Source: Yponomeuta sedellus
Lineage: Eukaryota > Arthropoda > Insecta > Lepidoptera > Yponomeutidae
Direction of reading: 5' to 3'
Length of the DNA stretch: 64,000 nucleotides
Assembly (NCBI GenBank): GCA_934045075.1
Contig: OW203751.1
Location: forward strand, 1,499,822-1,563,821
Shown piece after piece: positions 30-38,100 of the stretch; position 1 is the first letter of the stretch; each line of letters starts with the position of its first letter. The notes beneath the pieces are model-generated. The model did no database searches and was not told the DNA's origin. It saw nothing but the letters and a program-made list of their open reading frames with translations. Made by a program: the position numbers and the translations under genes.

Positions 30-3000
30 GTACCTGTTAATAGTAAGTTGGAAATGGTATTCCTTAACACTTTAGCGGGCAGAGCTGGTATTCATTTTTC
101 TTTGCACTTTTTATGGTTACCTACACACAATCTCACCAACTAGTCGGTGCCTTTTTTCGCCATTTTTATCACCAAATTACTCTAATATTGATACACCCTT
201 CATACATTATAAGGCGTTAAGTGCTAGTTGTGACGTCATAATCTGAGCCTGATTTCCCCCCCCCCCACGTGTTTTCTTACCACGTTTTTGTTATTACGTT
301 GTTTAGTTTTTGACTTGGTTTTTATGTAGCCTATAAATGTCCCACTGCAGGGCACAGGCCTTCTGTCAGAGAAAGAGAGAGATTGGGCTTGAATACATTG
401 CGACTCTTTTTTTTTTTTTTCAACAAAGTTAACTATGATTACAGGGAGTCCCTAATTCAATTGTTAAGATAACAAAAAAGAACAATACTGAATAATAAAA
501 GAACAATAACAATACAAGTATAAGCACACAATTACAAACTATTACCTTTTCAACCTTTTCATCATTTTCATCTTAATTTTTCTTATATTTTTTTATCGGT
601 TGTGGACTTTATTTCAAAGTGTTGAGGTTCAATTCAACCCTTTGCTAAGCAGTGATATAGAAGTTCCCACCATAAATTGACCTTTGCAATAAACTCCACA
701 ACCAATAAAAAATATACTAGCTTTGCCCGACAAAGGGTAAACATCCTCTCTAGAACATCCATATGACGGACATCCATTTTATGCACTATCCTCGTTCCTG
801 TAGACGACATCCCCTCCGGTTGTGCTGCCGCTCTGAAGTGCACCCCCGTCGAGTACTGCACAGCCGAGGGTGTGATGAGCAAGAGTCTCGTGGTGCTGAC
901 CAGGGATCAGGAGGCATTCCGAGTGCCTTTGACTGTGAGTACCTTTTAGTAGCCCTTGACGCAAGCGCATCAACATAAGTTATCCCCCAATCCGGACTTG
1001 GCTCCCTTGAACAATTTACTGTACATAAAAAAGGATATTACAAAGATATTTCTTTACCTAAGACTGCAGCCTTATCACTAAAAGTGAGCTCTTCCAGACA
1101 AACTTTTAGCTTGAGTTTCTCTCTGGGGGCACCATCTTTCTGTAAAAAGCTTGTAAAAAGGAGGTGTGCAGATCGTCCTATTTTTGGCACAAATTCAAAA
1201 TGAAGTCGACAGAGGATTTCGACGTCAAATTTCTTTTATTTTGATCTAAATAAATAAGATGCTAAATAAAACGAGGAAAACATTAAAAATCTCTTCGTTC
1301 TTACCTTCGTTAGCTCTGATTGCTTCAAAATTCTGACCGATCCTCGTTTGCTCTTGATTGGCTATAGTCTTGTACTGGACAAACAGTGCAGTGAGTCTAT
1401 AAAGCAGAATTGAATTGAACTGAGGACATCATGTATTAGCGCTACTGATAATTCCACCTCCCCATCCTCCTATGATTAACATAACTGCAACCTTACCCTC
1501 CCCACACAGGACTGCAAAAACCTTGAGACCGGCGAGGTGGGCAAATGCTGCCGCGACCCCGACTACACCGATCCCTGGCCCACCAACCTCATCGGCAAGT
1601 GGACCCAGGGTGTCTTCGGAGGCAACGACGGGAAATACGTGCCCGATAGCCGCGGGAGCCCTAGCATTTCAAGCCCAATTGTCACCGTGAGGCCCCCTGT
1701 AACTGGATCAGTATTTTTGAACAACTTCAGGTGATTATACTATTTTTATTTTTAATGCACTAACCTGTGTTAAGGACAAATTTAACACTATTTATTCTGT
1801 ACGTAATACAGAGAATAGTGTAAAGATGTTCGAAATTTCACTGATGCCGGTGAGTCGCCCATTGGCTCAATTGGTAGAGCGCTGGCACGGATAGCCAGAG
1901 GTTGCGGGTTCGAATCCCGGCATGGGTGAAATTTTTAGCCTCTAAATAGGTTTTTAAACTTCAGGTGAGTCTCCTAAACTTCTCAATCAATCAAATACAT
2001 TTATTTCAACGTTACGTATTTTCATTCTGTTTGCTGAATGTAAATTTACAATGTAAAATGTAAGCCGCTGCCTTCGGGCCGTATTGTAGTGGAGAAAAAG
2101 GCAACGGGAACAAATCTCCACTCTGACCATCTTTTCTCAAGTCCTCTTAAACCAAATACATCAGTTGCTACCTATACGTATACCTAATAAGATTTCATGA
2201 TTGCCATTAACAACCCTAAATGCCAAAGCATTAGTCAAATGTCTCACAATAATAGGGGAAAACATAAGTGCTGCGGCCAGACACACGAACAGCGCTCGTT
2301 CACGAGCATAACGCAGTGCTCAGCCATCACCAGTCTCAACCATTTTGGAGGGAGATAGATAACCCGAACACCACGCCGCCATTCGAACCGACCTAATGAC
2401 CGAATGCTCATAATTTTGCTTGTTCATCTTATGGTGCCTGCCCGACTAGCGAAGGTTGGCAGTCAGCTCTGCAAATTTATCTCTGTCTCTCGCAAGGCGG
2501 AAGAGCTCGGTCCACTCCCGTAGGTTTCTCAACCAGGATTTCTTTCTCCGGCCTTCGCGTCTCCTGCCCGCAATTTCTCCCATCACTATAACTTGTAGGG
2601 AGACAGTATCTTTGTAGAAAATCAAAGATTTATTCTATTACTGGGCGCATCTATATTCGTAAAGGTGGCTTCAGGCTGGGTGTATTCCCATGGTTGTGAT
2701 GTGCCTACCTGGTTACCATAGCACAGGGTATCCTAGTTTGGGACGAGGACAAGTGATTGAGTCGTGTGGAAATTATTTTTGTTAATATTACTAGATGACT
2801 AAAAAATTTAAAATGCAAAATATAATATTCAAAAACCTATTTCGAGGCTAAAAATTCCACCCATGCCGTGACTCGATCCCGCGACCTCTGGCTATCAGTG
2901 CCAGCGCTCTTCCAACTGAGCTAATGGGCGACTCACCGGCATCAGTGAAATTTCGAACCTCTTTACAATACTCTCCGTATTACGTACAGCCTATTAGGTA

Positions 3001-6000
3001 CTATTTAGGCTCTAAATAGGTTTTTAAAATTGTCCTTAGCACGGGTTTGTGCATTAAAAAGAATCTAATTATAATATTCAAAGTTAAGATTCAAAATTCA
3101 AAATTCAAATTTCAAAATTCAATATTCAACATGCAACATTTAAAATTCATAATTCAAAATTCGTATTAAAAAAAATCAATATTCAAATTCCAAACTCTAC
3201 ACGCAAGACTCACAACTCAAAAATGTAAACTCAAAAGCAAAACTCAAAAATTAAAAAATCTTAACTCAACACTAGAAATTCCAAATTCGTCAAAATTCAA
3301 AATTCACCCGTGTTATGAAGCGTTCTCTTCCGCCCGATTAGTTGCATTAATTGAATGTTCCAGAGCTCTTTTAACCCTGAACATTTCTTTTTTCTAAGGT
3401 AAACACGAGCAGTAGACATAATTAAAACTGTGGTTAAAACTCCACGGCACCTGAAAAAGTGCCGAAACGTTGGAAAATTGTAAAAAATGTAATAAACGAG
3501 CATAAATCCTTATAAAAACAGTTTTAATTAATCCTGAACATTTCTTCCAGATCAACCGCAAAGCCGACCCTCCCCCCGTACGGGCTCAACCAGGTCACCC
3601 CTGGGTTCCCGTCCGTCACCACCAACTCCTTCGCCCAAAAGGAACAGTTCGAGATTCGCAACCAGGGCCAATACGCCCAGGGCGGTCAGGGTCAGTACGC
3701 CCAGGGTGGCGTGGGTCAGATCGGCATCGGAGCTGTAGGACAAGTCGGTCAGGGTAAGTTTTCTCCTTTCCTCCAATATTCAGGGCCTAGTGGAAAAGAT
3801 AAGATAAGAATATTACTTATTGCACACAAGATGATGAAAATGGGTCAAATCGCGAGTATTTATTTGAAAATACGTAATTACCTTAATTCCCGACGTTAAA
3901 TAATCGCGTTTTTAATATAATGTAACTGAATATATAATATGTGTGAGAAGTCGTGAATCATTAACAAAGACTAAAATTAAAATGATATGCATTTAAAAAC
4001 CTATTTAGAGGCTAAAAATTTCACCCATGCCGGGATTCGAACCCGCAACCTCTGGCTATCCGTAGCGCTCTACCAATTGAGCAATACTCTCCAATTCATT
4101 CCAATTCGCTCAATTGGTAGAGCGCTGGCACGGATAGCCAGAGGTTGCGGGTTCGAATCCCGGCATGGGTGAAATTTTTTGCCTCTAAATAGGTTTTTAA
4201 ATTTGTTCCTTAGCACGGGTTAGTGCATTAAAAATAAAAATAAATGTGTAATGATATGCATTTATTATCGGTTAAATACATAGATAGAGTAGGTGTGCTT
4301 CAACAGATTAAGTAATAGATACTACCCCAATTACTATTTGCATTTTGATTACAAACACTAACACAATCTTGCGAACACGATATCGATCGATATCAACCCT
4401 TGTAGGTCCGCAGTGCTGGAGCACGGGTCTCTTCCTGCATTGCAGGAAGGTTAGGCCATACTCCAGCACGAACACAAAAGAAAACGCTGCGGCTCAGCAA
4501 AATGCCAGCCACAGGCAACCAGCGCTGGTTTTCAGCCGCAATCCAGCTGATTCGCTGTGGCGTAAATAAATAGCAAAGACAAAATAAAATTGTACAACCC
4601 CGTAGGCAACGTAAAAGTGAGAGTAAAAATGAAAAATGTTTATACAGTTGAATGTATATAATTATAAATTTCTGAGGCTTATAGAACTTAAACTTAGAAT
4701 TAAGGGAAAAGTAGAATGGAGCACAATGTAACTTCGTGAAGGGACAATGTCTCTACACTAGGCATAGCCTGTATTGTGGGCGACGGTTTCATGAGGCGCT
4801 TAGGAGCGCCACCAATGAAATAAAAAACGTTACTGGTTTCATAATACGTAGGTATCTAAATGTTAAACGCTCGTGGCCTAGCGGAACCTAGTGATTGGAA
4901 TCAGTCACTTTGGTTAAGCAACAACAGGCGCGGTCAGATACTGGATGGGTGACCCTTTATACGTCCCCACTGTTGGGGCACGGGACTCTTCCTGCATCGC
5001 AGGAAGGTTAGGCCATACTCCACCACGGGGGCCAAGTCTGGGTTGGTGGAGGGTTGTAGGACAGTGGCGGGCCTTACTGTCAGAAGTTATCAAGCCGCCC
5101 ATAAGGCCTCTGACATGGCTTAACGACTGCCATTACACGATAGCCGGCAACAACGGCTTAACGTGCCTTGCGAAGCACGGAAGCGCTCGGAAAAATGCCA
5201 CTAGCGGTAGTCACGGGCTCACCCATCCTGTACCTGACCGCGCATGTTGTTGCTTAATCAAGTGATTGATTCCAATCACTCGGTTCGCCTAGGCCACGGC
5301 CCCTAAGCGACCTAATAATAAATTTGGCGTGTTCTGTGTACGTGACAGAGTCATCAGCAACTGGAAACGAAGCGCTATCAAAATAATCAGCTACTTATGC
5401 ATTATGAATGAGTATTTTCGTAACGAGTCGTGGAAAGGCGCCCGCGAATCTGCCAAGGTCTCTCCAAAGTTGTAATCCGATAGCGAATATGTCAAGTGGC
5501 CGTTTGGCCACCGGTCAGGGGTCACGGCGTGGTCAAATTGTAAAAGCACACTAATATTATAAAGGCGCTGCTGCTGTGGTGTCGGCCTAGAGAATAGCAC
5601 CAACCGAAATTCTTCCCGCGGGTGTATATACTTACTAAAATATTTTTTGGTCGAATGGAACAGATATTTACTATTTAAGACTTGCTTGAAAAGAGAGTCA
5701 AGTAGCGTATTATCGACCGTGTGCGAAACGCCGATATTCGGCAAAACACCAAACTTGTAATGTAGCTTATGTAATACTGTTATTTCGCTGTGTGGTGTCG
5801 GCCTAGAGCACCAACCCAAATTCTTCCCGCGGGTGTCGTAAAAGGCGACAAAGGGACTCAAACCGGGGGGGTGGGCAGCAGCGCCCCCTGCAGTACAATT
5901 GTACCAAACTGCGATCCCCAACCCGCATGCCCAGCGTGGGGATTATGGGCATTACCCCCTAATGATGGTACAACCTTGCGCTCATTTGGGTAGGGCTATA

Positions 6001-9000
6001 TATATGTCCAGCAGTGGACTAATAATAGCCTGAAGAAAAAAGAATTACAAAGGCGAAAGTTTATGTGTGTGTATGTGTGTTCTTCTTCACGTCTAAACGG
6101 CTTTTATACCAGTTCTTATTGTTATCAATCCTCGTATGTCCCACTGCTGGGGCACGGGTCTCTTCCTGCATCGCAGAAAGGTTAGGCCATACTCCACCAC
6201 GGCGGCCAAGTCCGGGTTGGTGGAGGATTGTAAGACGGTGGCGGGCCTTACTGTCAGAAGTTATCACGCCGCCCATAAGGCCTCTGACATGGCTTAACGA
6301 CTGCCATTATATGACAGCCGGCACCAACGGCTTAACGTGCCTTGCGAGCACGGAAGCGCTCGGAAAAATGCCACTAGCGGTAGTCACGGGACGCTTACCG
6401 ATCCTGTACCTGACCGCGCCTGTTGTTGCTTAACCAAGTGATTGATTCCAATCACTCGGTTCGCCTAGGCCACGAGCGCTTCATCACACTCCACACACAG
6501 GGGCTACTCGTAATAGCTAACTCCTGCAAAAAAAATATCTTCTTTTATTTTCGAACTAAAACTTTCGTAAGCACGACAATTTTTTAAATTTTTCATAATG
6601 TAAAAATTCCGTGCTTCGCAAGGCACGTTGCGCCGTTGGTGCCGGCTGTCATGTAATGGCAGGCGTTAAGCCGTGTCAGAGGCCTTGTGTACGGCTTGGT
6701 AACTTCTGACAGTAAGACCCGCCACTGCCTTACAATCCTCCACCAACACGGACTTGGCCCCCGTGGTGGAGTATGGCCTAACCTTCCTGCGATGCAGGGA
6801 GAGACCCGTGCCCCAGCAGTGGGCACATACCGTGGGTTGATATCATATCATCATGGCTTTCAAACCACCCAGCATTCATGCTGTACAATGATCTACTGAT
6901 ACGATGATACTTACGATGGCCTCTGCGTTATGCTCGTGAACGAGTGCTGTTCGTGTGTCTGGCCGCAGCACTTGTCATGTTTTCACGACCTATTTGGAAT
7001 TTAAAGTCATTAATGGCAATCATGGAATCTTATCACACGTATCTGATGTATATAGATTTTAGAGGACTTGAGAAAAGATGGTCCGAGTGGAGTTTTTTCC
7101 CCCGCTGCCTTTTTCTCCACTACACTACGGCCCGAAGGCAGCGGCTTTCAGTTTCATGTTACATTGTACTTTGACATTCAGCAAATAGTTTACATTCTAT
7201 TTGTTGAATGTCAAAGTCTTTACGTTGAAATAAATTTAATTGAATCGGCTTCATAATCAATAATCATTGACCTCCACAATATTCCACTGCGGTGGATTTT
7301 TACAGCATTTAAATTAGGCCCCTAGTTTTACGGCATTTTAAATTCGTTCTCAGTTTAATGTCTGCATATTTTATCGGTTATTAAATTGTAAAAGCTCAGA
7401 GGTCAATAATACCTGCTTCTGCGAGTTCCAGCGGGGCAGCTGACGACACGTTTGCATTTGAGCGCATGGCCCCATTTATATGTTCTGCTTTCTAGTGTAC
7501 AATTAATTTAGTTTCATACGAGTAATCACTTTGACATTATTCTAATTCAATTCAATTCTGTTATTATGTCTATTTCGTATTAATCCATCACGATTATGTG
7601 CATACATACTGTGAAATTGTAGATGTAATACTTGAGTGCCATTACCATCTACTTTATATGTTCACGTCCTCAGTGGCGCAGCGGTTTGGCACGCTGACTG
7701 TAAAACCGAAGGTCTCGGGTTCGACCCCCGGCCGGGTCAAACTAGGAAACGAACTTTTATAGTTTGTCTCGGGTCTTGGATGTTATCTATGTATTTGCTG
7801 TATTAAATCTATCGTCGAGTTAGCACCTACAACAAAAATCACTTAGTTGTACTTAGTATAGGGCTAACGAGATCTGTGTAATATGTCCATGAATATTTAT
7901 TTATTTATTTATTTATTTATTATTATTTATTTATACGTGTCTAAGTGAAATGTACCAAAAGATGAAATAAATACAGTAAAATTAAGTTCTCAGCTTATCT
8001 TATCCCAAAGGCAGTAAATTTTTGTTCGTGTCAAATCTATCTATCTAATAAGCCCATCAGCCATTCAGGAATCGCTCGTAGCTCCGGCTGCTTGAGTGAT
8101 CTTTAACGATCACTTAGATAAAGCCACATAAGCGTTCAGTGCATGGATGGCTAAACCGTCTATGACTAACGCTAGTGGAATTTTTCCGAGCGATTCCGTG
8201 CTTCGCAAGGCACGTTAAGCAGTTGGTACCGGCGGCCGTCGATAGATGGCAGTCCCGTGCCCCTCGGTGGGGACATAATGGGTCGATGATTAATCGCCCC
8301 ATAAACAGAGCCCACTGCTGGGCGTAAGCCTCTTCTCTTTCACGCCAACCCGTCGGGTCTTTTGCTATTCTCGTCCAATGCTTTCCAGTCGCTTTCACAA
8401 TGTCGTCGGCTCACCGGGATGGCGGTCTGCCCACCGTTCTTGGCCACCACTCAGTGGCTATCTTAGTCCGTCTTCCCGCCTAACCGAATACAGTCCCCAC
8501 TGCTGGGGCACGGGTCTCTTCCTGCATCGCAGGAAGGATAGGCCATGCTTCACCACGGGGCCAAGACCGGGTTGGTGGAGGATTGTAAGTCAGCGGCGGG
8601 CCTTACTGTCAGAAATTATCAAGCCGCCCATAAGGCCTCTGACATGGCTTAACTACTGCCATTATATGACAGCCGGCACCAACGGCTCAACGCCCCTTGC
8701 GAAGCACGGAAGCGTTCGGAAAAATGCCACTAGCGGTAGTCACGATAGCCACGGGGACGGAACTGACCGCGCCTGTTGTTGCGTAACTCAAGTGATGTGA
8801 TTCCAATCACTGGGTTCGACTAGGCCACGAGCGCTTTATCTCCATCTCCAGATAAACATTATTAATCTTTGTTTTAGGTACCCAACAAACTAATCAATTC
8901 ACGTCGCAAACGCAGCAGACACAGTACCAGAACCAAAATCAGAACCAGAGGGGTCAAGGTCAGCTCGTGACCCAAGGTCAAGGTCAACTCGTGACGCAGG

Positions 9001-13861: not shown

Positions 13862-16800
13862 AATTCTACATTTATTTTTACTAGCATAGCTCTCTCCATA
13901 GCTCGCTGAGCGACTCAAGGTTTTTAGTCTTTAGGGGCTGCGGTAAAGGTGACTGCCCAGAAATAGTAGTTACTAAAGAAACTTTTAGGGAGAGCGGGTG
14001 ATCGTGCTCTTCCTCTATAAAGGGAAATTTCCAGCCAGGCAGATCGTTTGCCTGGGGACGGCCGGTCTGACTGTTGTTAGTCGGACGTTATATTAATGAC
14101 TAGCTTTTGCCCGCGACTCCGTCCGCGTGGACTTTAGTTATTCAGCAAAATTATGCAACCCCGTCCACTCCCTTAAGGGTTAAATTTAGAAAAACTGCGA
14201 AACACGTGTTCAATCACTTGTGTTAAAGAGTAAAGAAAATTAGACAACATTTTTTACACTTCCCATACAAATTTTTGCAACCCTTTTCGCCCCCTTAGGG
14301 GTTGTATTTCAAAAAATCCGTCTTATTCCTTGCCTACAATATATACAGACCCTCTGTGCAAAATTTCATATTCCTAGGTCCAACGGCTTGGGCTGGGCCA
14401 AGCTATGTAGATTGCAATTTATATAGATATATATGTCATGTGAAACACTTTGATTGCGCGATGCAGAAACGTTGGAGTTTGTAGTGCGCGCGCAAAGTTG
14501 ACATGTGCTCCCCACTAATAAACATCCCACTGCAGGGCACAGGCCTTCTCTGAGAGAGTATGGGCTTAGTTACAGCGCGTGCCCACCGCGGCGTGGCAAT
14601 TTCATGCGCTGAAATATTTGAACATCCCATACACTCAGGTGTCCTCACGATGTTTTCCATCACCGTTAGCGAGTGGTATTGTAGTGGTATATTATAACTT
14701 CACAAACGTATAAAGTCTGTTAGCTTTTAGAATATACCACGGGCTCTAGAGTAGGCTTCGGTTTTCGCAAATTTTCGCCGCTTTTCGTACTGATGATCGA
14801 GTTCCGATTTCAAAATTTAGGGCAAGATAAATAGTCGTTGCTTAGCCCAAGTCCGTACTCAAGCTTCCCTAAGTATTACTTCAGGCTAACATAGCTAAGT
14901 ATCAAAGTTGACGTTTGCTTAGCTAAGCATGTTCTTAGGCCAATGCTAAGAATTAGTCCGGGTTTAGCGACTTAGAGAGTGCCAAAGTACTGTCTATGAT
15001 AGACAAATCGATTCTTAAGCAAGTGCTTTCGCTAAGACTCGTTCTTAGAAGCGACTATTTATCTTGCCCTTAGTGTCATATTAGTTCCGACTATTCTATT
15101 ACACGAATATATCCGATTCTATCCGATAGTAGCCGAGGTATATTCTAAAAGCTAACACACTATACGTAATTAAAAAAACAAAGTACAAAAATGTAGAAAC
15201 ATACGAAGACTGATTGGATATTATGACTTAAATGTCAGTCACCACTTATATTTTAAAGCTAAAACTTATGTAAATTAGAGCTATAAAATCATATTCATTT
15301 CAAAATGGGCGGTCGCTCATATTTGTGCTGTGATAAACATTCTTGATTAAAATCTAAAATTCAAAATTGATTCATTATTGAAGTGACATGAACGTCTTAC
15401 GTAACAAAAGCGGCCCCTCTCTCAATCTTTGCCACTTCTGTACATTTTCCACCAGCCAACCCGCAGGAGGTATCCTGCGGGTTGGCTGGTGGAAAATGCA
15501 ATTAGAATTAAGTCCTCCTTTTGTGCATTATCTTCTGTGCAATAAAGAATTAACAAGAATAGGTGGGTCGTGTATAAAACATTTTATGTACAACTAGCTG
15601 ACCCAGCGAGCTTCGCACCGCCTAACAGTCGATTCTTTATTTTTTTTTTCTCTCCGTAAGCACCATCCTCGTACTTCAAGGAATATTCTACAAAAAATAA
15701 TTAGCGAAATCGGTTCAGCTGCTCTCGAGATTTGCGCTTACCAACACATTCAGTGATTCATTTTTATATTATAGATAGATAAAAAACACTTAATGAACGT
15801 AAAAGCTGTTAGTTTCACAATTATGTGGAGGAGAAGCTAACAACGAAACTCCACATTCGTTCTGGCTTAACCTCATTCTTTGGCGAAATGTCACCGAATC
15901 ATCATCATCAACCCATTACGTCCCCACCGCGGGGTACGGGTCTCTTCCCTAGGCATACTCCACCACGGGGGCCAAGTCCGGATTGGTGGAGGCTTGCAAG
16001 ACTAATGGCTGGTTTTACTGTCAGAAGTTTTCAAGCCAAGGCCTCTGACTTGGCTTAACGACTGCCATCTATCGAGGGCAGCCGGCAACTACCGCCACTA
16101 GCGTTAGTCATAGACGACGCCCTATTTTACTTAAACTTCCTGATCGCTTAAGATCACTCAGGCAGCCGGGGCTACGAGCGCATCAAAAAAAAAATCACAC
16201 AAATCGAATGGTGAAATCTCAAACGGATTTCCAAAGAAATATTTTCATAGAGAATGTGGTTTCAAACTGTTGCAAACGTGGGATCCGGTCCTCAAGAAGT
16301 GTTCGAGTGGAAAAAAGTCGCATGGCTTATCGTCCGACATTGTCAGTGTATTGTGTCGCAACCCTGATAGTGCTTTGTGATGGCTGATTGAGGGTAGTCT
16401 GAAACCTTGTCAACCGAAGATGCGAACGAGTGCCAGCCATCAGTCTTCTCGTGACCACGATGACTGTAACGTCGTCGAAACGTCGAGGTAAAATAGCAAT
16501 AAATTACTACGCGATTAAGCCCCGAAAATATTCTTACTAAATATTTTCTAACATTGACCCACTGAGGACTCCCATGGCGTTCAAGAAAACACCGTCTTTA
16601 TCCAAAAGCGTCTAATTCTAGGGCACATTGCGTCACAACGAACTATTAATTCACAAGACGACGTCTCTTTTGAATATTATTACGCCAGTGTGAAGTATTT
16701 GCTAACGCCGGGTACACACCAGCTAATCGCGACCGCAAGTCGGGTGCCCTTACCAAATATGTATCACCAATAGGCGTCATGAAAGATTTTTATAGAATAG

Positions 16801-20100: not shown

Positions 20101-23100
20101 GCCGTGAGTCGCCCATTGGCTCAATTGGTAGAGCGCTGGCACGGATAGCCAGAGGTTGCGGGTTCGAATCCCGGCATGGGTGAAATTTTTAGCCTCTAAA
20201 TAGGTTTTTAAACGTATAATAATAATAATAATAAATTAGCATGCTCGAGAAATGGTCGTCTCTATACAAAGAGGTCCATAATATTTCTCTGCTCTGTGGT
20301 GTCGGCCTAGATAATAGCAGCAGCCCAATTCTTCCCGCGGGTGTTGTAAAAGGCGACTAAGGGACTCAAACCGGAGGGTGGGCAACAGCGCCCCCTGCAG
20401 TACAATTCTACCAAACTGCGATCCCCAACCCGCATGCCCAGCGTGGGGATAATGGGCATTACCCCCTATGCTAGCACAACGTGGCGCTCATTAGGGGAGG
20501 GCTATGTCCAGCAGAGGACTAGTAGAGCCTGAGGACGGACGGATTTATTTAATGCATTCCAATTGGGAAATTTGAATGCATCCCTTTGCCCAGCAGTGGG
20601 GCACAGCCATGGCTAATTAAAAAAAAATCCAATATACTTGGAATACTTTGATTCCAATCACTCGCTTCGACTAGGCACGTTAAGCCGTTGGTGACGGCTA
20701 TCGTGTAACGGCAGTCATAAGCCATATCAGAGGCCCCATATTCTTGAATCCTGTGATAGCAACTTCTGACAGTAAGGCCCACCACCGTCTTAAACAATCC
20801 TCCACCAACCAGGACTTGGCCCTCGTGGTGGAGTATGGCCTAACCTTCCTGCGATGCAGGAAAACAACGGTGCCCCAGCAGTGGGGACATACAAGGGTTG
20901 ATATCGATCGAATCATGCAAAGGTCGGGGGTTTTTACCAGACAGGGGCATAGATAGCTTGATAGATAGACCACACTATATCAAATAACATCACACCAATA
21001 TTATAAAAGCGAAAGTTTGTGAGTGTGTATATTTGTTACTACTTCGAGTCTAAACGGCTAGATTGGCCTGAAAACGGCGATTTTAATAAAATTTGGTATA
21101 GTAAAGTAAGGCAAAGCAAAGCAAAGCAAAGCAAAGCAAAGCAAAGCAAAGCAAAGCATAGCAAAGCAAAGCAAAGCAAAGCAAAGCAAAGCAAAGCAAA
21201 GCAAAGCAAAGCAAAGCAAAGCAAAGCAAAGCAAAGCAAAGCAAAGCAAAGCAAAGCAAAGCAAAGCAAAGCAAAGCAAAGCAAAGCAAAGCAAAGCAAA
21301 GCAAAGCAAAGCAAAGCAAAGCAAAGCAAAGCAAAGCAAAGCAAAGCAAAGCAAAGCAAAGCAAAGCAAAGCAAAGCAAAGCAAAGCAAAGCAAAGCAAA
21401 GCAAAGCAAAGCAAAGCAAAGCAAAGCAAAGCAAAGCAAAGCAAAGCAAAGCATAGCATAGCAAAGCAAAGCAAAGCAAAGCAAAGCAAAGCAAAGCAAA
21501 GCAAAGCAAAGCAAAGCAAAGCATAGCAAAGCAAAGCAAAGCAAAGCAAAGCAAAGCAAAGCAAAGCAAAGCAAAGCAAAGCAAAGCAAAGCAAAGCAAA
21601 GCAAAGCAAAGCAAAGCAAAGCAAAGCAAAGCAAAGCAAAGCAAAGCAAAGCAAAGCAAAGCAAAGCAAAGCAAAGCAAAGCAAAGCAAAGCAAAGCAAA
21701 GCAAAGCAAAGCAAAGCAAAGCAAAGCAAAGCAAAGCAAAGCAAAGCAAAGCAAAGCAAAGCAAAGCAAAGCAAAGCAAAGCAAAGCAAAGCAAAGCAAA
21801 GCAAAGCAAAGTAAAAATTATTTATTTAGTAAAAGGTAATTGGCAGTGTACTACAGTGTCTGGTGGGCCCCACACTAGGTAAATCGTGGTCGCCCGTTTG
21901 TGAATTTCTAGTAGTAGAAAGTGCCACTGAGGCAGGAAGGGAGTTGCACAAAAATTTAGATTATATTTTATTATTAAATAGGTTTTTAAATTTGTCCTTA
22001 GCACGGGTTAGTGCATTAAAAATAAAAATAGTATAACAGAGAATATTGTAAAGAGGTTCGAAATTTCACTGATGCCGGTGAATAATAGGTACCTCCTTAA
22101 ATTGAACCCACTTTTAACTATGAAATGTCAGTTAGAACCCTGTTATCTTTGTTACAATCGTAGCCAAAGACCTTAAACACATTGACCCATAACACTTACA
22201 GCCGCCAAAGTATTGGGCCAAGATTAGCTCCAACGCTTGGCGCCAATAACTGGTTAATAAGTCACGAGTAATTTTTCATTGGACAGTCGAGAGGTTACGC
22301 AAACATCCACTGGCATGATATTACGCATTCGGTTATATTGCGAGAAACAGAAATGACATGTTTGTTTGTTATTATTATAGTTCTTCTTCAGGCTATATTA
22401 GTCCACTGCTGGACATAGCCCTTCCCTAATGAGCACCACAGCGCCCTGTCTTTGGCTTGCCGCATCCAACAACTGCCAGCAGTTTTTCACAGATCGTCAT
22501 CCCACCTGGTCGAAGGGCGTCCTACACTACGTTTTCCGTTTTCATTTTCGTCTCCACTCAAGGAAACGTTTACTCCAACGGTTCTTTCCTTCGCGCTACA
22601 GTGGGCTATATAGCCCACTGCCACTTCAGCTCGCTAATTCTCTTAGCTATGTCGATAACTTTGGTTCTCTGTGGGATGCATTCGTTACGAATCGTATCCT
22701 TTAGAGAAACTCCGAGCATAGCTCTCTCCATAGCTCGCTGAGCGACTTTGAACTGGTGGACCCTTTCGTGAGTGTCCATGTCTCGGCTCCGTAGGTCATG
22801 ACAGGTAGGACGCACTGATTGAAAACTTTCGTTTTCAAACATTGCGGTATGGATGACGAGAAGACTCGGCGTAGTTTCCCAAACGCTGCCGAGCCCAGCT
22901 GGATGTTATTATTATTGTTCTTATATTTGATTCAATTGTTGTATGTCCCCACTGCAGGGGCACAGGTCTCTTCCTGTATCGTACTTATATTAAAATACAT
23001 TAAAATCCGCTATGCCACTTAAAGTAAATCGTGAATGAAAAGGGAAGACGCTTGATAATGTATGGAATCAGGCGTTACATTGCGGGAATCCATAGCATTA

Positions 23101-26100
23101 AAATGTGAAAATTACTTTGATAAATTCCGCTAAAAATCCCACAAGCACCATGCGGTTAGTTAATGCAAACTTTTTCAAGCAGAAACAAGACACGAACACA
23201 CCACCAACGACACGCTAAAAACCTATTTGCAGGCTGTACGTAATACAGAGAGTATTGTTAAGAGGTTCGAAATTTCACTGATCCCGGTGAGTCGCCCATT
23301 GGCTCAGTTGGAAGAGCGCTGGCACGGATAGCCAGAGGTCGCGGGTTCAAATCCCGGCATGGGTGGAATTTTTAGCCTCTAAATGGGTTTTTAAAACATA
23401 CTCCTGTAATATCCTCAGCCTGACCTCGTCTTTCTCTCCCAGGGTCAGAAACCGTACGGCAACCGCAACGAGCTGGAGGTGGACTTCGCCGAGATCCCCT
23501 GGCAAGCGATGGTGCTGCTGCAGACCAACCGCAGCCTGCTGTGCGGAGGAGTCATCACCAGGCCTGACGTGGTCATCACCACGGCCAGCTGCGTTAATGG
23601 GTTTGTAGCTTCCTTGCCATTTTTACGCCTCTGGGGCATCCAAGAGTAAGAGCTCCAATACACAACAGTGCAAAAATAAAGCCTCATGATTTTATTGCTT
23701 TTTCGAGACAACGGACACGTATTTTTCTTTGATCTAATTTCTTTGGAAATAATAGTTATTTTTAAGTTATGTAGTTGATTTTCAGAACCGGAAGTGACGT
23801 AGGCTATAAGGTAACATAAAATATAATTTTACCTCTACTTTACTTTACTGGAAAAAAAACTTGTCATTGCAACGATTCGATTCGACACACCACAGACTAA
23901 AAGTTGTTAACAATTGACATTTAACTTTTTTTTTGGGTGACAAAGGCAAAGAAATGAAATAAAATGAAATGAAAAGGTTTTATTCAAAGTAGCGCAGAAG
24001 CTGCGTCTTAATGAACGTTACAATTCAAACTAGGTGTCCATTTCAAAATCTAGATCATTTTGGAGAAAAAATGGACAAAAAAACTCCAAACTTAGTCTTT
24101 TCAAAGTCCTTAATTAACATAGTTTACATAATTATTATAAACATAGAACTCATACATTGTACTGGCTATAATTCCAGACCTCATTGTCATCTAGATACCA
24201 CGCTGTAGAGCCGCTGTGCCTGTTTTTCTATTTTATTTTATAATTTCAGAAATTAAAGTACAGAAAAATCTTATTTTTCTTGTATTCCTTAAAGCTTAGT
24301 ATCCAAATGGTTTTTTTTTATTTCAGCTTCATGTTTTTTTTTGCCATTAAAACGCTGAATTCAGATCTCTTCTTCCCCTAGTTCTTGCTAACCTTCCAGG
24401 CTATATTATTAGAGCCATCTTTCTAAAGCGCATGCCACACTACTATTTTTGCTCTAGGCCATCCTCGTCCAGCTGTTAGTTTCAAAGGATACTTTATAGA
24501 GACCTTTAGATAGTCAGTCCAGCGAACCAGCACGCCACGCGTCTGCCAAGTCTCTTACATGTCAATTCAAAAACCTATTTAGAGGCTAAAAATTCCGCCC
24601 ATGCCTGGACTCGAATCAGCCAGCCAGCCAGCGCTCTCCCAACTGAGCTATTGGGCAAGTGCTGGCATCAGCGAAATTTCGAACCTCTTTACAATAAATA
24701 CTCTCTGTATTATTTACAGAGGTTCGAAATTTCGCTGATGCCGGCACTTGCACATTAGCTGAGTTAGGAGAGCGCTGGCACGGCTAGCCAGAGATCGCAA
24801 GTTCGCGTCCCGGCATGGGGAGGAATTCTTAGCCTCTAAATACATTTATAAAATTGTCCTCAGCACGGGTTTGTGCAACAAAAAGAATATAATCATGACG
24901 ACCTCTGTGGCGCAGCGGTAGCGCATCTGCCTGCCATGCGAGAGGTCCCGGGTTCGATCCCCGGCTGGGGACAAAAAAAAAACCCCAGGTCTTGGATGTT
25001 TACATGTTTGGCTTCTGGTTACCACGACACAGGGTATCCTAGTGTGGGGCCAGAGGCAATGTATGTGCCAGTATGTAAATGCTATGCTATGCTGAATAGT
25101 AACCACAAACCTTTCCTTAACAGCCTGCAAGCCAAAAACGTGCTGATCAAGGGCGGCGAATGGAAACTAGGCATCGACGACGAGCCGCTGCCGTTCCAGA
25201 TCGTCCAGGTCAAGAACATCCTCCGTCATCCTTTCTACAAGAGGGGTCTATACCAATACGACGTCGCTATCCTGGTCTTGAACGAGAACCTGAGACTGGC
25301 CAAGAACATCTACCCGATATGCCTTCCTGGTGCCCAGGACACGCTGGGTGGATTCTACAACGGAGCTGGAGAATGCTTGGTGACTGGATGGGGCCGACAG
25401 GTGTTGCAAGGTCAGTGGAGTTTTTTATTATTAATTATTGGGGTGTGGGCCCAGAGAGGTGGGCAAAACTCGGATGACGGATACCGCAAACGTGGCCGAC
25501 CGAAGCGGAGAAGGCGGGACCTCACAACCTTTTTGCCAGGCTGGCAGGAGGTGGCCATGAACATGGAGGAGTGGAAGACAAAAGGGGAGGCCTTTGCCCA
25601 GCAGTGGGTATCTCGATTACCCAATACTAGCCGCACCGACAGACTTCGTTCCGTCGAGGACAGATATTTTAATTTACTCTGTGGTTCGAGTGCGAAGGGA
25701 GAAGTGTTGTTTTTACTACTTTACTAGCGATTTTTACGTTTTTCTCTCCCTAAGAACCTTTCCTGTGCTTTAAAGAAATTATGAAAAATAAAATAGTAAG
25801 AATAGTAAGTTCCTGAGCTTCGGGTTTAGTAACACATTTATTTATATAGATATAGTTTGTTTCGGAATAAATCCTTCGTTCACAGCCATTATTATAATAG
25901 AAAAAAATCCAGTTTTTTTTTATTTACCGAAAAAGTCAGGGAGGAGAACAAGTGGTTGCATATGACAAACACATCATATGGAATCAGCGTGTTCCAGGTA
26001 TAGCGTAGGATTTAAAAAATAACCCTGTATACTCGTAGTAGAATTAAAATGAAGCGCGTATGACACACTTCTATTTTTTGTTGAAATCTTTCACTCACGT

Positions 26101-29100
26101 TGCAACGGTGATTGTGAAATGAAACGTCCTATACTAAGTGTCAAAAATAAATTTGACCAATTTTTTCTTGGGACGTGCTAATTTGGACCATTTTTTCTAT
26201 CATTTGGACGCGTTAGTACCGTGGACTTGGTCCCGGTTGGAGTTCTGGGTCCAATCTTCAACTCGAGGCAATTTTATTTAATAATAATAAATATTCATGG
26301 ACATATTACACAGATCTCGTTAGCCCTATACTAAGTACAACTAAATGACTTGTGTTATAGGCGCTAACTCGACGAGAGATTTAATACAATAAATACATAG
26401 ATAACATCCAAGACAAACTAGAAAAGTTCGTTTCCTAGTTTAACCCGGCCGGGGATCGCACCCGAGACCTTCGCGTGCTACAGTCAGCGTGCCAAACCAC
26501 TGGCCATCGAGGCCGTCATTATTAGTTTATTACTTTACTGAGCAAATAAAAAAGAGTACAGACTGTTAGCTTTTACAATATACCTCGGGCTCTAGTGTAA
26601 TACTCTGTAAATACTCCTGCTCTCTGTATAAAACTTTTCTTCACTATTTTGAAAAGTTATGTAAAGTTACAAATAACAATACAAAATAATTTCAAAAACC
26701 TATTTAGAGGCTAAAAATTTCACCCATGGCACGGTTAGCCAGAGGTCGCGGGTTCGAGTCCTGGCATGGGTGGATTTTTAACCCTCTAAATAGGTTTTTA
26801 AAATAGTCCTTAGCACGGGTTAGTGCATTAAAAATAAAAATAGTATAATCTGGCTCTGGCTATCCGTGCCAGCGCTCTACCAATTGAGCCAATGGGCGAC
26901 TCTGAATAGGTTTTTTTTTAAATTTGTCCTTAGCACGGGTTAGTGCATTAAAAATAAAAATAGTATATTCTCCTTTATAATTCATATTTTGTATCAGTTA
27001 ATTCATTAAAACTACAGTCCACGATCGAATTCTTTGATTTACCACTAAACAAATGTGCAATATCTCAAAACGTACAACTAATTGAATTTCTGTAAAATCG
27101 CATTCCATCGATCAAGACAGCTAGATTATTATTAGAGCTGTTTGTCTAACCTTGCTAAGGATGTAAAAACTTTTGGGCCCAAACTTGAAGCCTATAAGAG
27201 TCCAAATAATATTAGGTAATATTTAATAAACAGAAAACAGTTGGCACTCGTTACATACCGTACCTACGTGTTAATATTACATACGCAATGATATAATAAT
27301 GTCCTAATAATAAACAAGTTAGTGTTATAATAGGTACTTACGTCGATACTTATTTGGAGGTGTCAAAGATCTAACTACGTCTTAAATATGCACGCCTGTG
27401 CATCTGTCTTCACTGATATATCTACGGACTCTACTGATACGATAAGCTGTGTTGTTAATGAATGAATGTTTTACGAAGTGAACTTGTGAATATAAGTGAC
27501 TCTGCACGTATATCACCCCTGTATGTCCCCACTGCTGTGGCACGGGCCTCTTCCTGCATCGCACGAAGGTGAGGCCATACTCAACCACGGCCAAGTCCGG
27601 GTTAGTGGACGAGTGTAAGACAGTGTCGGGCCTGTCAGAAGTTATCAAGCCGCCCATAAAGCCTCTGACATGTCTTAACGACTGCCATTAAGTGACAGCC
27701 GGCACCAACGGCCTAACGTACCTTGCGAAGCACGGAAGCGCTCGGAAAAAATACCACTAGCGGTAGGCATTCACCCATCCTGAACCTGACCGCGCCTGTT
27801 CTTGCTTAACTCAAGTGATTCTAATCACTCGGTTCGACTAGGCCACGAGAGCTTCATTAACATTATCTTGGAATAGATTTAGATCGGATTATTCCTTTTT
27901 CTGTCAACTCCAATATCATAACGTAAAAAATAACTGTGCGAACAGTTGAATAGACAGACTCGCCCGTACAACTCGCACTGAGCTTATCCAATATATTGCG
28001 CCAAAAGGGCTACAACATAAAGGACTATACCATAAAGGATTATTAAGATGACAATGATGTCTAGAATTAAAGTCGGTATAATGCATGAGTTCCATGTTTT
28101 AAAAAAATATGTAATCTCTGTTAATTAAGGACTTGTATTATTATAATAATAATATTAAGATGTATGACATGTAACTCTTAATAAGTTATCAATAAATTAT
28201 CTGTATCTGTAAAAGACTATGTTTGGAGCTTTTTTGTCAATTTTTTCTCCAAAATGATCTAGATTTTGAAATGGACACCTAGTTTAAATTGTAACATTCA
28301 TTAAGCCGCAGTTACTGCGCTACTTTGAATAATACCTTTTCAATCCATTTCATATTATAATTTTCTAGCGACCTTAGGAACCAATCTAATAAATAACTTC
28401 AATAAATTAAACCACAACTTTCCGCTCCGTATTCCGACCTCAATTTTATTGTTTTATATGTTCTAAAACTCGCGTCTTCGCGATAATGGCATTTTTAACA
28501 ATGTATTATAAATAATAACCTCAGAAACAGCCTCCTAAGCACCAATAAAAAATTGATCCATAATAATAAATAACTTATAATGTATCGTTTGGCCAAAAAA
28601 AGATCCACTGATCTCTCGAATAAAGCGTTATCTCAAAATTGTCTATGCCCACGCTAAAAATGACACAACCTTAAATGTCATAGGTATAATTATTACGTTA
28701 TTATCGGACTTAAAGCGGTGTTAGCACAATGTATACAAATGTTGCTTCATATTTGTGAAGTACTGAGTTAAAATGAGTATGTAATGAATATTGTAGTTTA
28801 GATAATCATGTGGGTACAGCGATATCATTCCGATGTAAAAACCTAACTGCAAAGTAGGTAGTCGGGGCTGTAAGTGATGCAATCTACTTCAGCCAGATGC
28901 CGCTGCCTGTACGTAATACAGAGAGTAGTGTAAAGAGGTTCGAAATTTCACTGATGCCGGTGAGTCGCCCATAAGCTCAGTTGGATAGAGCGCTGGCACT
29001 GATAGCCAGAGGTCGCGGGTTCAAATCCCGGCACGGGTGGAATTTTTAGCCTCTACATAGGTTTTTTAAAATTTTCCTTAGCACGGGTTAGTGCATTAAA

Positions 29101-32100
29101 AATAGAAATAGTATAAAACGTAATTACCTCATTTCCTGACCTTGCTAATCGTGCTAAGGACAATTTTAAAAACCTATTTAGAGGCAAAAAATTCCACCCA
29201 TGCCGGTATTCGAACCCGCGACCTCTGGCTATCCGTGCCAGCGATCTATCTAACTGAGCTAATGAGCGACTCACCGGCATCAGTGAAATTTCGGACCTCT
29301 TTACACTATTCTCTGTATTACGTACAGGCAGCGACATCTGGCTGAAGTAGATTGCATCACTTACAGCCCCGACTACCTACTTTGCGGTTAGGTTTTTATA
29401 TCGGAATGATATCACTCACTGTAGCCACATGATTATACTATTTTTATTTTTAATGCACTAACCCGTGCTAAGGACAATTTTAAAAACCTATTTAGAGGCA
29501 AAAAATTCCACCCATGCCGGGATTCGAACCCGCGACCTCTGGCTATCCGTGCCAGCGCTCTAACTGAGCTAATGGGCGACTCACCGGCATCAGTGAAATT
29601 TCGGACCTCTTTACACTATTCTCTGTATTACGTACAGGCAGCGACATCTGGCTGAAGTAGATTGCATCACTTACAGCCCCGACTACCTACTTTGCGGTTA
29701 GGTTTTTATATCGGAATGATATCACTGTAGCCACATCATTATACTATTTTTATTTTTAATGCACTAACCCGTGCTAAGGACAATTTTAAAAACCTATTAA
29801 GAGGCTCAAAATTCCACCCATGCCGGATTATTAATTACGTTTTACCCAATAAATAATCGCAATTAGACAGGTTAATATAAAACTGTGTATGAGTATCGCG
29901 AATCATTAAGGAATACTATTTCAGCCTATATGGGTCCCACCGCACAGGCCTTCTCTCTCAGAGAAAGAGAATGGGCTTAATTACGACGCGTGCCCACAGC
30001 TGATTGGCATTTCAGGCGCTCAGGTACTTGAACACCTCAGGATCTCAGGTTTCCTCACGACGTTTTTCTTCGCGGTTAGCGAGTGGTATTGCTACTAAGA
30101 CTTCACAAATGTACACAACTTAGAAAACAAAGTCAATGCCGGGGTTCGAACCCACGACCTCCTGATTGAGAAGCCGGCGTTCTACACCGCTCCGCTACCA
30201 CCGCTCGTGTACATAACTTAGAAAACAAAGTCATGGTACATGCCCTCACTGGACATCGAAATGGTGCCTCTCGCTGCAAAAAGTAGATTTACATATATTT
30301 TCAAAATGCAGTAAATTCATAGTTTTATGGTAATTTGTTTTAGTTACACGGGCAACTAAAACAAATTGAATTTTGATTCGATTATGCAAATTATCGTCGT
30401 AAGTAAAACCGGCTTGCAACCGGTACATGCAGGTAATCTATGTGAGTAATTATGTATATTTAGGATCGTGGCAAGTGGCAAACTCCGGTCTCTGCCTCCC
30501 CACCGGGACACAGGATTGATTATTTCCACCCTGCTGGGGCACGGTTCTCTTCCTGCATCGCAGAAAGTTTAGGCCGTACTCAACCACGGGGTCAAGTCCG
30601 GGTTGGTGGAGGATTGTAAGACAGTGGCGGGCCCTTACTGTCAGAAGCTATCAAGCCGCCCATAAGACCTGTGACATGGCTTAACGACAGCTATTGTATG
30701 ACAGCCGGCACCAATGGTTTAACGGGCCTTGCGAAGCACGGAAGGGCTCGGAAAAAATGCCACTAGCGGTAGTCACGGCACGGTCACCGATCCAGCATAT
30801 TACCGCGGCTATTGTTGCTTAACCCAAGTGATTGATTCCAATCACTTGGTTCCACTATGCCACAAGCGTTTCTACACTTTACATATATAAAAATATGGGC
30901 ATACTGTTTTAATATTAAAAGATAGGTATAATTTTGCTATAGCTTTCAAACCACCCATAATTCATCCTTTAGATAAAGGCCTGCGCAGACGAGGGACTTT
31001 TGTCCCCAAGGGACAAAAGTAACACCTACGGTGTGCGGTCGTTTGTTCCCCGGAAATTGAGTGAAGCGTACGCTATGGAAGCAAATAGGTATTCTGAGAT
31101 TACATTGTGTCGTAATTTACATGAAGTTGAAAAAGAAAAGGCGTTTTAAAAGAAGACGCCGAACTTTTGTCCAGTCCGGTCTCTTGATGTCCTCGGTAAC
31201 TTGAGGGACTTTTGTACGGGGTACTTTTAGTCCTTCGTGTGCGTTATTCGATACAATTTATAAGAGATTTATATCGACGGACAAAAAAGTACCCGGGGGA
31301 TAGTCCCTCGTCTGCGCAGGCCTTAAGTTAAAACATTTTTGTTAGACATGTAATCACGATGTAAGAGGTCAACTGCAGGTTTCCTCACGCTGTCAAAGAC
31401 ATTTGTCTTCATTTCATCGTAAGGCCTTAATCTTTTAACAGGAAAACTGGTTGCTCATTAAAATGTGCGATAAGAAGCTTCGACCTAACGAAGCGTTGGT
31501 TAAGAGGTCGCTTTACAAATCAATCGATCAAACTTCCGTCCATTCACTTCAGGACATGCTTCTCTATGGCACAGCCGATTGTACCGTTTTTGGGAGCACA
31601 TATCTACTCTACGCGCGCAATATAAACTCATTTTTAGCCTCTAAATAGGTTTTTTAAAATGTCCTTAGCAGGCGTTAGTGCATTAAAAAAATAATATAAT
31701 CTTGTGGGTACAGCGATATCATTCCGATCTAAAACCTAACTGCAAAGTAGGTACTCGGGGCTGCAAGTGATGCAAATTACTTCAGCCAGATGTCGCTGCC
31801 TGTACGTAATACAGAGAATATTGTAAAGAGGTTCGAAATTTCACTGATGCCGGTGAGTCGCCTATTAGCTCAGATGGAAAGAGCGCTGGCACGGATAGCC
31901 AGAGGTCGCGGGTTCGAATCCCGGCATGGGTGGAATTTTTAGCCTCTAAATAGGTTTTAAAATAATAATAATGTTTTAGCTCTCGGTAGGTACCGTTTGC
32001 GTATCGAGATATCGGTACCGACTGACCTCCTTAGGTCGTTAAGACTGCACAGCACTGAAAACGAAAGTGTAGATGTGTCGAGAACCGGATTTTGTGGGTC

Positions 32101-35100: not shown

Positions 35101-38100
35101 CGTAGTAAGGCCGCTCAAATAGAAAGAGACAATAGAAGAACGAACTCGCTAACGTGATGGAAAACGTCGTACAGGCTTTATGAATTTGAATTGTTTACAC
35201 TATTTTTATTTTTAATGCACTAACCCGTGCTAAGGAACAAATTTAAAAACCTATTTAAAACCTATTCAATTGGTAGAGCGCTGGTACGGATAGCCAGAGG
35301 TTGCGGGTTCGAATCCCGGCATGGGTGAAATTTTTAGCCTCTAAATAGGTTTTTAAATTTGTTCCTTAGCACGGGTTAGTGCATTAAAAATAAAAATAGT
35401 GTAATCATGTGGGTACAGTGATATCGTTCCGATGTTAAACCTAACTGCAAAGTAGGTAGTCGGGGCTGTAAGTAATGCAATTTGCTTAAGTCAGATGTCG
35501 CTGCCTGTACGTAATACAGAGAATATTGTAAAGAGGTTCGAAATTTCACTGATGCCGTGAGTCGCCCATTGGCTCAATTGGTAGAGCGCTGGTACGGATA
35601 GCCAAAGGTTGCGGGTTCGAATCCCGGCATGGGTGAAATTTTTAGCCTCTAAATAGGTTTTTGAATTGTTTGAAAAACAAAAAACTCGACTGCCTTAAGT
35701 AAAATACATGAAGCCGTTAGGTCACAGAGCGTGACAAAGAATATACATACATCCACACATACATACATACATACATACATACATACATACATACATACAT
35801 ACATACATACATACATACATACATACATACATACATACATACATACATACATACATACATACATACATACATACATACATACATACATACATACATACAT
35901 ACATACATACATACATACATACATACATACATACATACATACATACATACATACATACATACATACATACATACATACATACATACATACATACATACAT
36001 ACATACATACATACATACATACATACATACATACATACATACATACATACATGTTGTGAACATAAAATTATTGTTCTCGTTTTACTGTCGCTACCGGGCT
36101 TTCGAGAGAACCAGCCTGTGACATCATTTTGCTGACCGTAGATTCTTATTATTACAGTTTATTGCACATGAAAAAAAAACAATACAGGGAAATACAACAT
36201 AAGAACATAACAATTAATTCTGTTCTTCCGCGGAGTGAATTAAATTACCGACATAAATTTAAGATTTTCTATACGTTGTTTGCGTGCCGTGCTTCGCAAG
36301 GCACGTTGGTGCCGGCTGTCATGTAATGGCAGTCGTTAAACCATGTCAGAGGCCTTATGGGCGGCTTGATAACTTCTGACGGTAACGCCCGCCACTGTCT
36401 TACAATCCTCCACCAACCCGGACTTGGCCCCCGTGGTGGAGTATGGTCTAACCTTTCTGCGATGCAGGAAGAGACCCGCCCCAGCAGTGGGGATACACAA
36501 AAGGTTGATATCAATACGTAGTTTTTAATGAAGAAAATTTCTTGTTAAAATAATTAATTTTGGACTCAAATTTCCTCAATCAAAAACTTAGTACAGGAAT
36601 AACCGACTAACAATAGTTGGACCGGGACCAGCAGATCGTACGTCCCCAGGCATACGATCTGCCTGGGAAATTTCCCTTTATAGTGGAAGAGCACGATCAC
36701 CCGCTCGTCCCTATAGACTTTTGTTCCCCATCGACCCGTAGGCCTGTTATCAGAAACAAGCGAGCGAGAAACTTAAAAATACGACAGATCAACACGGTCA
36801 CGTAACCGCACGGTCACCGGTTGGAATGCGGTATTTCGCAAGCTGTTGACCGTACGACTTGGCAGCTTCACAGAGGTCAGGTCGCGCTGGTCACAAGATA
36901 TTTTGACCAGTTCACGTTAGGAGCGAATGCGCGACGCTCCGAAGCAGAGATGGGTCGAGTAATTTCCGACGTGGCCTAGCCAAACCGAGTGATTGGAATC
37001 AATCACTTGTGTAAAACAACAACAGGAGCGGTCAGGTGCAGGATCGGTGCTCGTGACTACCGCTAGTGGCATTTTTCCGAGCGTTTCTGTGCTTTGCAAC
37101 GCACGTTAAGCCGTTGGTGCCGGCTGTCTTGTAATGGCAGTCGTTAAGCCGAGTCAAATGCCTTATAGACGGCTTGATAACTTCTGGCAGCTTACTGCCA
37201 GAAGTTATCAAGCGGGTCTTAACCCGCCACTGTCTTACAATCCTCCACCAACCCGGTCATGGCCCCCATGGTGGGGTATGGCCTGACCTTCCTGAGATGC
37301 GGGAAGAGTAGCCCCAGCAGTGGGGACATTCAAGGGTTGATATCCCTAGGATACACACTAGGATGTCCTGTGTCGTGGGTACTAGAAACAGCGACATCAC
37401 AAACATGAAAACATCCAGACCTGGGGTTTTTTTGACCCGAACGGGGGTTCGAACCCGGAACCTCTCGCATGGTAGACAGATGCGCTACCGCTGCGCCACA
37501 GAGGTTGTCGTTTTAAAACCCTATTTAGAGCCAAAAAATTCCACCCATGCCGGGATTCGAACCCGCGACCTCTGGCTATCCGTGCCAGCGCTCTTTCCAA
37601 CTGAGCTAATGGGCGACTCACCGGCATCAGTGAAATTTCGAACCTCTTTACACTATGCTCTGTATTACGTACAGGCAGCGACATCTGGCTTAAGTAAATT
37701 GAATCACTTACAGCCCCGACTACCTACTTTGCAGTTAGGTTTTTAGCCTTTAAATAGGTTTATAAAATTGTCCTTAGCACCTGTTAGTGCATTAAAAATA
37801 AAAATAGTATAATAGGTTGTCGTTTGTGATTAGCACTTGTGATTAACAGCGGAACCAACCCAAATGGTTAACATTAACAATGTAGCATGTCTCTTTAAAT
37901 GTAGCATGTCTCTTTCAGTGTAGCATGTCTCTTTCAATGTAGCATGTCTCTTTAAATGTAGCATGTTTCTTTAAGTGTAGCATGTCTCTTTAAATGTAGC
38001 ATGTTTCTTTAAGTGTAGCATGTCTCTTTAAATGTAGCATGTCTCTTTCAGTGTAGCATGTCTCTTTCAATGTAGCATGTCTCTTTAAATGTAGCATGTT

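Follow-up and report, generated by a model that had tools for sequence, protein, structure and literature searches.

S1, a SINE with a 5S rRNA-derived head in Yponomeuta sedellus: copies, predicted head fold and estimated abundance

The 64,000-bp stretch of Yponomeuta sedellus DNA analysed here (hereafter the window) contains copies of a repeat, S1, which on sequence grounds is a 5S rRNA-derived SINE of the SINE3 type. The full-length consensus is 366 bp, or 367 bp with a leading G that is present in most heads. The explanation that fits the observations best as a whole, and which we hold to be very likely, is a non-autonomous retrotransposon SINE of ~366 bp with a head descended from 5S rRNA, together with a proposed route of transcription, folding and LINE-mediated copying. 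By extrapolation, S1 is estimated to occupy ~1e5 places genome-wide, and the fold predicted for its head is possibly conserved.

5S rRNA descent of the S1 head

The preliminary description had recognized box A, the intermediate element (IE) and box C of 5S rRNA genes in an S1 head, and all three strings were found on the + strand: GTTAAGCAACA at 4913-4923, GGCGCGGTCAG at 4927-4937 and GGATGGGTGACC at 4943-4954. Their order and spacing (offsets 0, +14 and +30) were as it had described, and are identical in the host 5S gene. The joined box pattern at 5S spacing, with up to 3 mismatches allowed, occurred 7 times in the window compared to 0 in 100 dinucleotide shuffles, and had 0 mismatches at 4913.

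S1 heads were compared with 5S genes of the host genome (657.5 Mb in 57 contigs; the window is C34:1499822-1563821), where 47 matches were scored, all above the cut-off, and ten loci were read. The host 5S genes were located on at least six contigs (C3, C14, C19, C21, C26, C27) and on both strands, diverged copies included. Each of the 14 heads tested from the window could be aligned to an intact host 5S gene, at a score equalled by 0-5 of 1000 dinucleotide shuffles (z 3.6-14.2). The aligned 5S range varied among the 14 heads, 5S 40-123 being the commonest. Two S1 subfamilies were distinguished, A and the more 5S-like B, and the most 5S-like of the 14 heads belonged to the B copy at 40495, in which the box A side is closer to 5S and 65 of 85 positions were identical to host 5S 40-123. 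In blastn comparisons with host 5S genes, this copy matched over 57 bp (82% identity, E 1.9e-11), whereas the match of the A consensus extended over 52 bp (77%, E 5e-6). Both matches, and the longer alignments of single heads, exceed the roughly 45 bases on which the preliminary description had made its reading depend.

The strength of the resemblance differed along the head. Box A, the intermediate element and box C are clearly of 5S descent. The stretch following box C aligned to 5S modestly (64 of 5000 shuffles were as good for A with its T-run, 437 for A without it and 199 for B), and the 3' end of the head with its T-run is probably of 5S descent. The 5' third aligned no better than shuffles (423/5000 for A, 4002/5000 for B) and is, by this comparison, no longer recognizable as 5S. 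Counted on the sequences, the S1 5' end lies ~49 nt ahead of GTTAAGC, compared to 50 in the 5S gene. The Rfam 5S model gave no match at E ≤ 1 in a scan of the whole window; when five short head-bearing stretches were searched it was sub-threshold in two (E 2.4 and 1.2) and absent in three, including the locus at 4865-5302. We read these sub-threshold scores as a result of the divergence of the 5' part of the head from 5S. The 7SL family was not named in the searches of the same five stretches.

That the three motifs are a chance resemblance, S1 being a SINE or other repeat of another origin, could draw on the 5S model remaining sub-threshold wherever it was tried. Against it stand the 7 box patterns where 0 were expected, and it was refuted by the alignment of 14/14 heads to host 5S and the blastn matches; we give it a negligible probability.

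Under a second alternative, the head would be of tRNA origin, either wholly or as a tRNA half fused to 5S. In subfamily A the 5' end, GTGGCCTAGTCGA, looks like a tRNA box A that is correctly spaced from the terminus, and by eye 11 of its 12 letters fit the box A consensus. 5S-tRNA hybrid heads of the AmnSINE type exist. This box-A-like stretch is, however, missing from B heads, and no tRNA match was found in the Rfam searches of the five short head-bearing stretches. The preliminary description had allowed for a better match to a tRNA; compared with two tRNA-type SINE heads of the window, the S1 head aligned no better than shuffles (321 and 867 of 1000 were as good). The Rfam scan of the window returned 19 tRNA-like matches at E ≤ 1, 17 of them above the gathering score. 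An S1 body was common to none of the 18 examined of these 19 places; S1 lay within 450 bp at 4 of the 18, always as separate, already counted copies sharing no body with the tRNA-like element. Because B heads lack the box-A-like stretch and the tests were negative, the chimeric head was dropped, and a tRNA origin in either form is in our judgement very improbable. We return below to S1 as a 5S-derived SINE.

Two kinds of tRNA-headed SINE are present in the window (at 1858, 20112, 24901, 37505 and others). Window 4041-4152 matched the plant miRNA family MIR5070 in Rfam below the gathering score; inspected by eye, this segment consists of two tRNA-type SINE head pieces in inverted orientation and forms a second fold-back close to the composite S1 locus described below.

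S1 copies in the window and the composite at 4865-5302

S1-like sequence made up 7,285 of the 64,000 bp of the window, and the consensus gave 35 blastn matches, some being parts of one copy. The principal copies outside the composite locus are:

6123-6482, - strand: S1-A, full-length
8069-8286, + strand: S1-B, internal deletion, perfect closing helix (GAATCGCTCG / CGAGCGATTC)
8493-8838, - strand: S1-A copy
15908-16184, - strand: S1-B, deletion in head; GAT repeats just past 15908
20648-20907, + strand: S1-A, 5' piece inverted (consensus 41-13 in reverse orientation ahead of 135-367), resembling a product of twin priming
27510-27856, - strand: S1-A copy
30521-30873, - strand: S1-A copy
36966-37346, + strand: S1-A, damaged box C, internal 19-bp perfect palindrome at 37172-37213
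39309-39668, + strand: S1-A, full-length, head reaching CCTGGGAC
40328-40460, - strand: S1-A, 5'-truncated, 13-bp target-site duplication GGGCCATTCTGTA
40495-40851, + strand: S1-B, most 5S-like head of 14
41277-41588, - strand: S1-A, cut inside head at consensus 60
45514-45750, - strand: S1-A, 5'-truncated, 10-bp target-site duplication CGAGCTTAAT
47988-48314, - strand: S1-A copy
51670-52035, - strand: S1-A, full-length, target-site duplication AGTCGTTCCATT

The copies at 36968 and 39310 had been described as alike. The latter does extend to CCTGGGAC as stated; box C of the former is damaged (GGATCGGTG followed by a deletion) and this copy is outside the 7 pattern matches. Its internal palindrome is a 19-bp inverted duplication with a 4-nt loop, as would arise from fold-back template switching during copying. 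Other repeats in the window were an (AAAGC)n array at 21103-21815 (143 copies, 98% matches), an (ATAC)n array at 35743-36052 and an array with a 19-bp unit at 37879-38796.

S1-A was the commoner subfamily (32 of 38 heads). S1-B was represented in the window by the copies at 40495, 8069 and 16184 and by 5'-truncated copies at 19306, 42703 and 53479. At least three window B copies end in GAT repeats, which were found in none of the A copies whose ends were inspected; S1-A often ends in GGGTTGATATCGA or GGGTTGATAACG. Median head divergence from the subfamily's own consensus was 7.6% for A (32 heads) and 9.2% for B (6 heads), and the closest pair among eight well-preserved A copies was 97.5% identical, gaps excluded.

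The span 4868-5298, given earlier as a single S1 copy, resolved instead into a minus-strand copy and an additional inverted head, with the following parts:

4865-4954, + strand: additional S1-A head (consensus 1-90), 5S-like box A/IE/box C at 4913-4954, inverted compared to the adjoining copy
4950-4956, no strand: junction of tail and inverted head, 3-4 bp of common sequence (ACC/ACCC)
4954-5302, - strand: S1-A copy spanning consensus 8-356, the head (5S-like region at 5217-5258) lying at the 5302 end, then body
5180-5195, - strand: T-run (5191-5195) and proposed 3' strand of the closing helix (5180-5189) in the minus-strand copy

The head described earlier is thus the additional, inverted one at 4865-4954. 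The minus-strand copy 5302-4954 lacks its tail end at 4954, and the 5' strand of its closing helix is damaged. The composite contains complementary arms of 46 and 39 nt that pair at 89-90%. In the window, its flanks and the random sample, which together hold 117 places, adjacent S1 pairs on opposite strands were found 4 times. Two of these four (L017:1928-2143 and window 20648-20907) resemble 5' inversions as after twin priming, which the composite 4865-5302 does not.

The composite may have arisen when an S1 copy was joined by its tail to an inverted second head, through template switching at a few common bases. Alternatively, the inverted head at 4865-4954 would belong to a separate, older S1 copy, in or beside which the minus-strand copy landed, with a later deletion and no template switch. 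The subfamily marks of the two heads differ (GCGGAACC/GACC and GGCGAACC/GAGC) and S1 is dense enough for such collisions (112 places in 263.8 kb), both of which favor this alternative; no remnant of an older copy was found directly past 5302, and no target-site duplication was found flanking either the minus-strand copy or the composite, which argue against it. We rate insertion beside an older copy as a serious candidate, a little short of an even chance.

Predicted fold of the head RNA

For the S1 head RNA, a closed structure with three arms is predicted. The predicted A fold was more stable than all 200 shuffles (0/200 equally stable, z -3.1). Its closing helix would join the first 10 nt to consensus 121-130 and, complete with the leading G, is formed by GAAGCGCTCG / CGAGCGCTTC; further helices are a short one, GCCT / AGGC, a hairpin (GAGTGATT / AATCACTT) and a 5S-like arm (GCGGT..ACCGC). 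A T-run lies at consensus 115-119, with at least five T in 29 of 38 heads and at least four in 33. The 3' strand of the closing helix follows this T5 run, and the predicted helix is therefore not the old helix I of 5S but stands in its place. Fold prediction gave this helix for A, for B40495 and for B8069.

Across 38 full heads (11 from the window and 27 from outside, with partial heads, in the window those at 16184, 4865 and 41588, and random-sample heads left out), 89.8% of cells were paired compared to 33-39% when the strands were slid, and 26 double-change cells were counted compared to 7.7 in shuffles (0/500 as many). Pairs changed on both sides were not beyond shuffles (91/500; 65/500 on the 38 heads). 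B differs from A by one pair in each of four helices with pairing kept, namely G-C to U-G (U-A or C-G in single copies), U-A to C-G, U-A to C-G and G-C to U-A; in most B copies, one of these four compensatory pairs is a wobble. In the comparison of the two consensus sequences, A and B, 6 pairs were changed, with 2 broken compared to 9.8 expected (P = 0.0001) and 4 compensatory compared to 0.85 expected (P = 0.0066). The 29 pairs used for the counts on the 38 heads and on the consensus sequences were chosen after A and B had been seen, a choice that favors them. When the whole fold was predicted from A alone, two B copies showed 6 and 5 compensatory pairs compared to 1.7 and 1.9 expected (P = 0.0035 and 0.025), and 11 of 19 and 11 of 17 changed pairs were broken compared to 16.4 and 16.9 expected (P = 0.022 and 0.016). 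The hairpin by itself had weaker support. All of this evidence concerns a single split, A versus B, on predicted folds.

The fold could also be a functionless by-product, in which a 10-nt inverted repeat arose once, for example by fold-back copying, and was inherited by A and B. This would suit a closing helix that has its 3' strand past the T-run, the small number of compensatory pairs (four, from one split), and the fact that over half of the changed pairs on the whole A fold are broken in B copies. It fits less well with the four helices, in which so few pairs are broken between A and B (2 compared to 9.8 expected), and with the recurrence of the closing helix in all three predicted folds. 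We consider a by-product unlikely, while giving it some weight.

Selection might also act on the head RNA to keep a closed fold of three arms like that of 5S, in which a closing helix has been rebuilt past the old terminator. Such a head may mimic 5S, binding 5S partners (TFIIIA, ribosomal protein uL18/L5) or docking near ribosomes, and bring SINE RNA to the nascent LINE reverse transcriptase, in the manner proposed for Alu and its 7SL head. We regard the 5S mimicry reading as a long shot, offered as speculation.

Retroposition, abundance and relation to known 5S SINEs

The copies bear marks of retroposition. In a 263.8-kb sample, consisting of the window and 200 kb of flanking sequence and searched with the A consensus and a B copy, 51 of 112 S1 places (fragments included) were 5'-truncated with an intact 3' end. 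Of 29 rows tested in the window, one of which is the composite 4865-5302 itself, 4 had target-site duplications at p < 0.01 and 25 had none at that level; by eye, such duplications were present at 4 of 7 copies outside the window. A few S1 copies had inverted pieces. An initial count in the window (5 of 22 ends, scan p 0.016) suggested a hotspot of 5' truncation at consensus 128-135, which would have pointed to reverse transcriptase stopping where the head is folded; the hotspot was not replicated, with 5 of 20 intact-3'-end copies in the window compared to 0 of 31 outside, and was rejected.

The S1 tail consists of CCCAGCAGTGGG then GGGTTGAT, with GAT repeats added in some B copies. RTE-like 3' ends carrying CCCAGCAGTGGG..GGGCTGATTA were found at window 46621-46632 (minus strand) and at L026:7898, and the S1 and RTE-like tails share a 12-bp aligned match (1 of 2000 shuffles as high) plus GGGNTGAT. 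The LINE class (RTE-like) is a reading of the protein by eye, and Pfam gave no match at cut-off on the LINE fragment. At 24852-25727, a trypsin-like serine protease exon (Pfam PF00089) is followed in the same open frame by an RTE-like LINE end (by eye).

From the sequence we infer transcription of S1 by RNA polymerase III, which would start ~50 nt upstream of box A via an internal type-1 (TFIIIA) promoter and would have to read through the T5 run at consensus 115-119. The head of the transcript would then fold into the closed three-arm structure, and an RTE-like LINE with a similar 3' end may recognize the S1 tail and reverse-transcribe the RNA at a nick.

The 112 places in the 263.8-kb sample covered 21.8 kb (8.3%). 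One exact body 20-mer occurred 19,277 times (9,714 + 9,563) in the 657.5-Mb genome, with 0 matches for a reversed-pattern control. The same 20-mer occurred 18 times in the 263.8-kb sample with its 112 places, which scales to ~120,000 places genome-wide (76,000-202,000 from the count of 18 alone) if young and old copies are present across the genome in the same proportions as locally. In 14 stretches of 2 kb from other contigs, five S1 places covered 1,453 of 28,000 bp (~5%), giving 117,000 places (38,000-274,000). Exact S1 body, tail and 5S words had 0 matches in viral_contigs or genome_contigs.

The preliminary description had called 5S-derived SINE families rare among insects. It named the kind correctly; lepidopteran 5S SINEs have, however, been in print since 2012 (HaSE3, then PxSE4/5, LaSE2, CsSE2 and later SINE3 families), and S1 is therefore of a kind already known. 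S1 is compared with these families here through published descriptions, in the accessible text of the sources cited. HaSE3 is a 5S rRNA-derived SINE of Helicoverpa armigera and resembles S1 in its 5S-derived head with boxes A, IE and C; it also has a 3' tail like that of an RTE-type LINE, with TGA repeats (PMC3272025), a likeness that S1 may share. It differs in having a body in common with the tRNA-headed HaSE1, whereas no tRNA-headed sibling of S1 was seen at 18 tRNA-like places, and it was reported to be much less abundant than HaSE1 and HaSE2 (PMC3272025). A 41-bp HaSE3-like piece is on record from the pink bollworm (PMC4026531). PxSE4, PxSE5, LaSE2 and CsSE2 (294-389 bp) share boxes A/IE/C with S1, PxSE4 and CsSE2 have (TGA)n tails, and the promoter region of PxSE4/5 is ~63% identical to Bombyx 5S (PMC8010984). 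SINE3-1_LyPhl, SINE3-1/2_ChrCul and SINE3-1_EnnFus are like S1 in having conserved promoter boxes and divergent upstream sequence (PMC10886601). The accessible text reports no head fold for PxSE4, PxSE5, LaSE2 or CsSE2 (PMC8010984) and describes none for the SINE3 families (PMC10886601), the latter source giving a predicted fold unlike 5S for the LTR element Ajax. The box C string is also carried by published 5S primers (PMC4778033, PMC4664967). For the Metulj SINEs of Heliconius, '5S rRNA' is absent from the accessible text of a heliconiine TE survey (PMC6685494), and no title or abstract found in the open-licence PubMed Central literature concerned a folded 5S SINE head or an insect 5S SINE this abundant.

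The estimate of ~1e5 S1 places compares with 532-4,415 published copies for PxSE4, PxSE5, LaSE2 and CsSE2, and the exact 20-mer count alone (19,277) exceeds the published 5S SINE copy numbers, with methods differing in both comparisons (PMC8010984). The lower copy number of 5S SINEs has been attributed to the presumed silence or weakness of a type-1 promoter after retroposition (PMC3272025, PMC8010984), and a 5S SINE at ~1e5 places would be a counter-case to that account. The kind of element being known, what deserves following in this finding is its abundance and a head fold that is possibly conserved. They open testable questions: whether S1 gives a polymerase III transcript, whether the T5 run is read through, and what role the folded head may have. 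If true, 5S mimicry could account for a type of SINE from which weak expression is expected having reached ~1e5 places.
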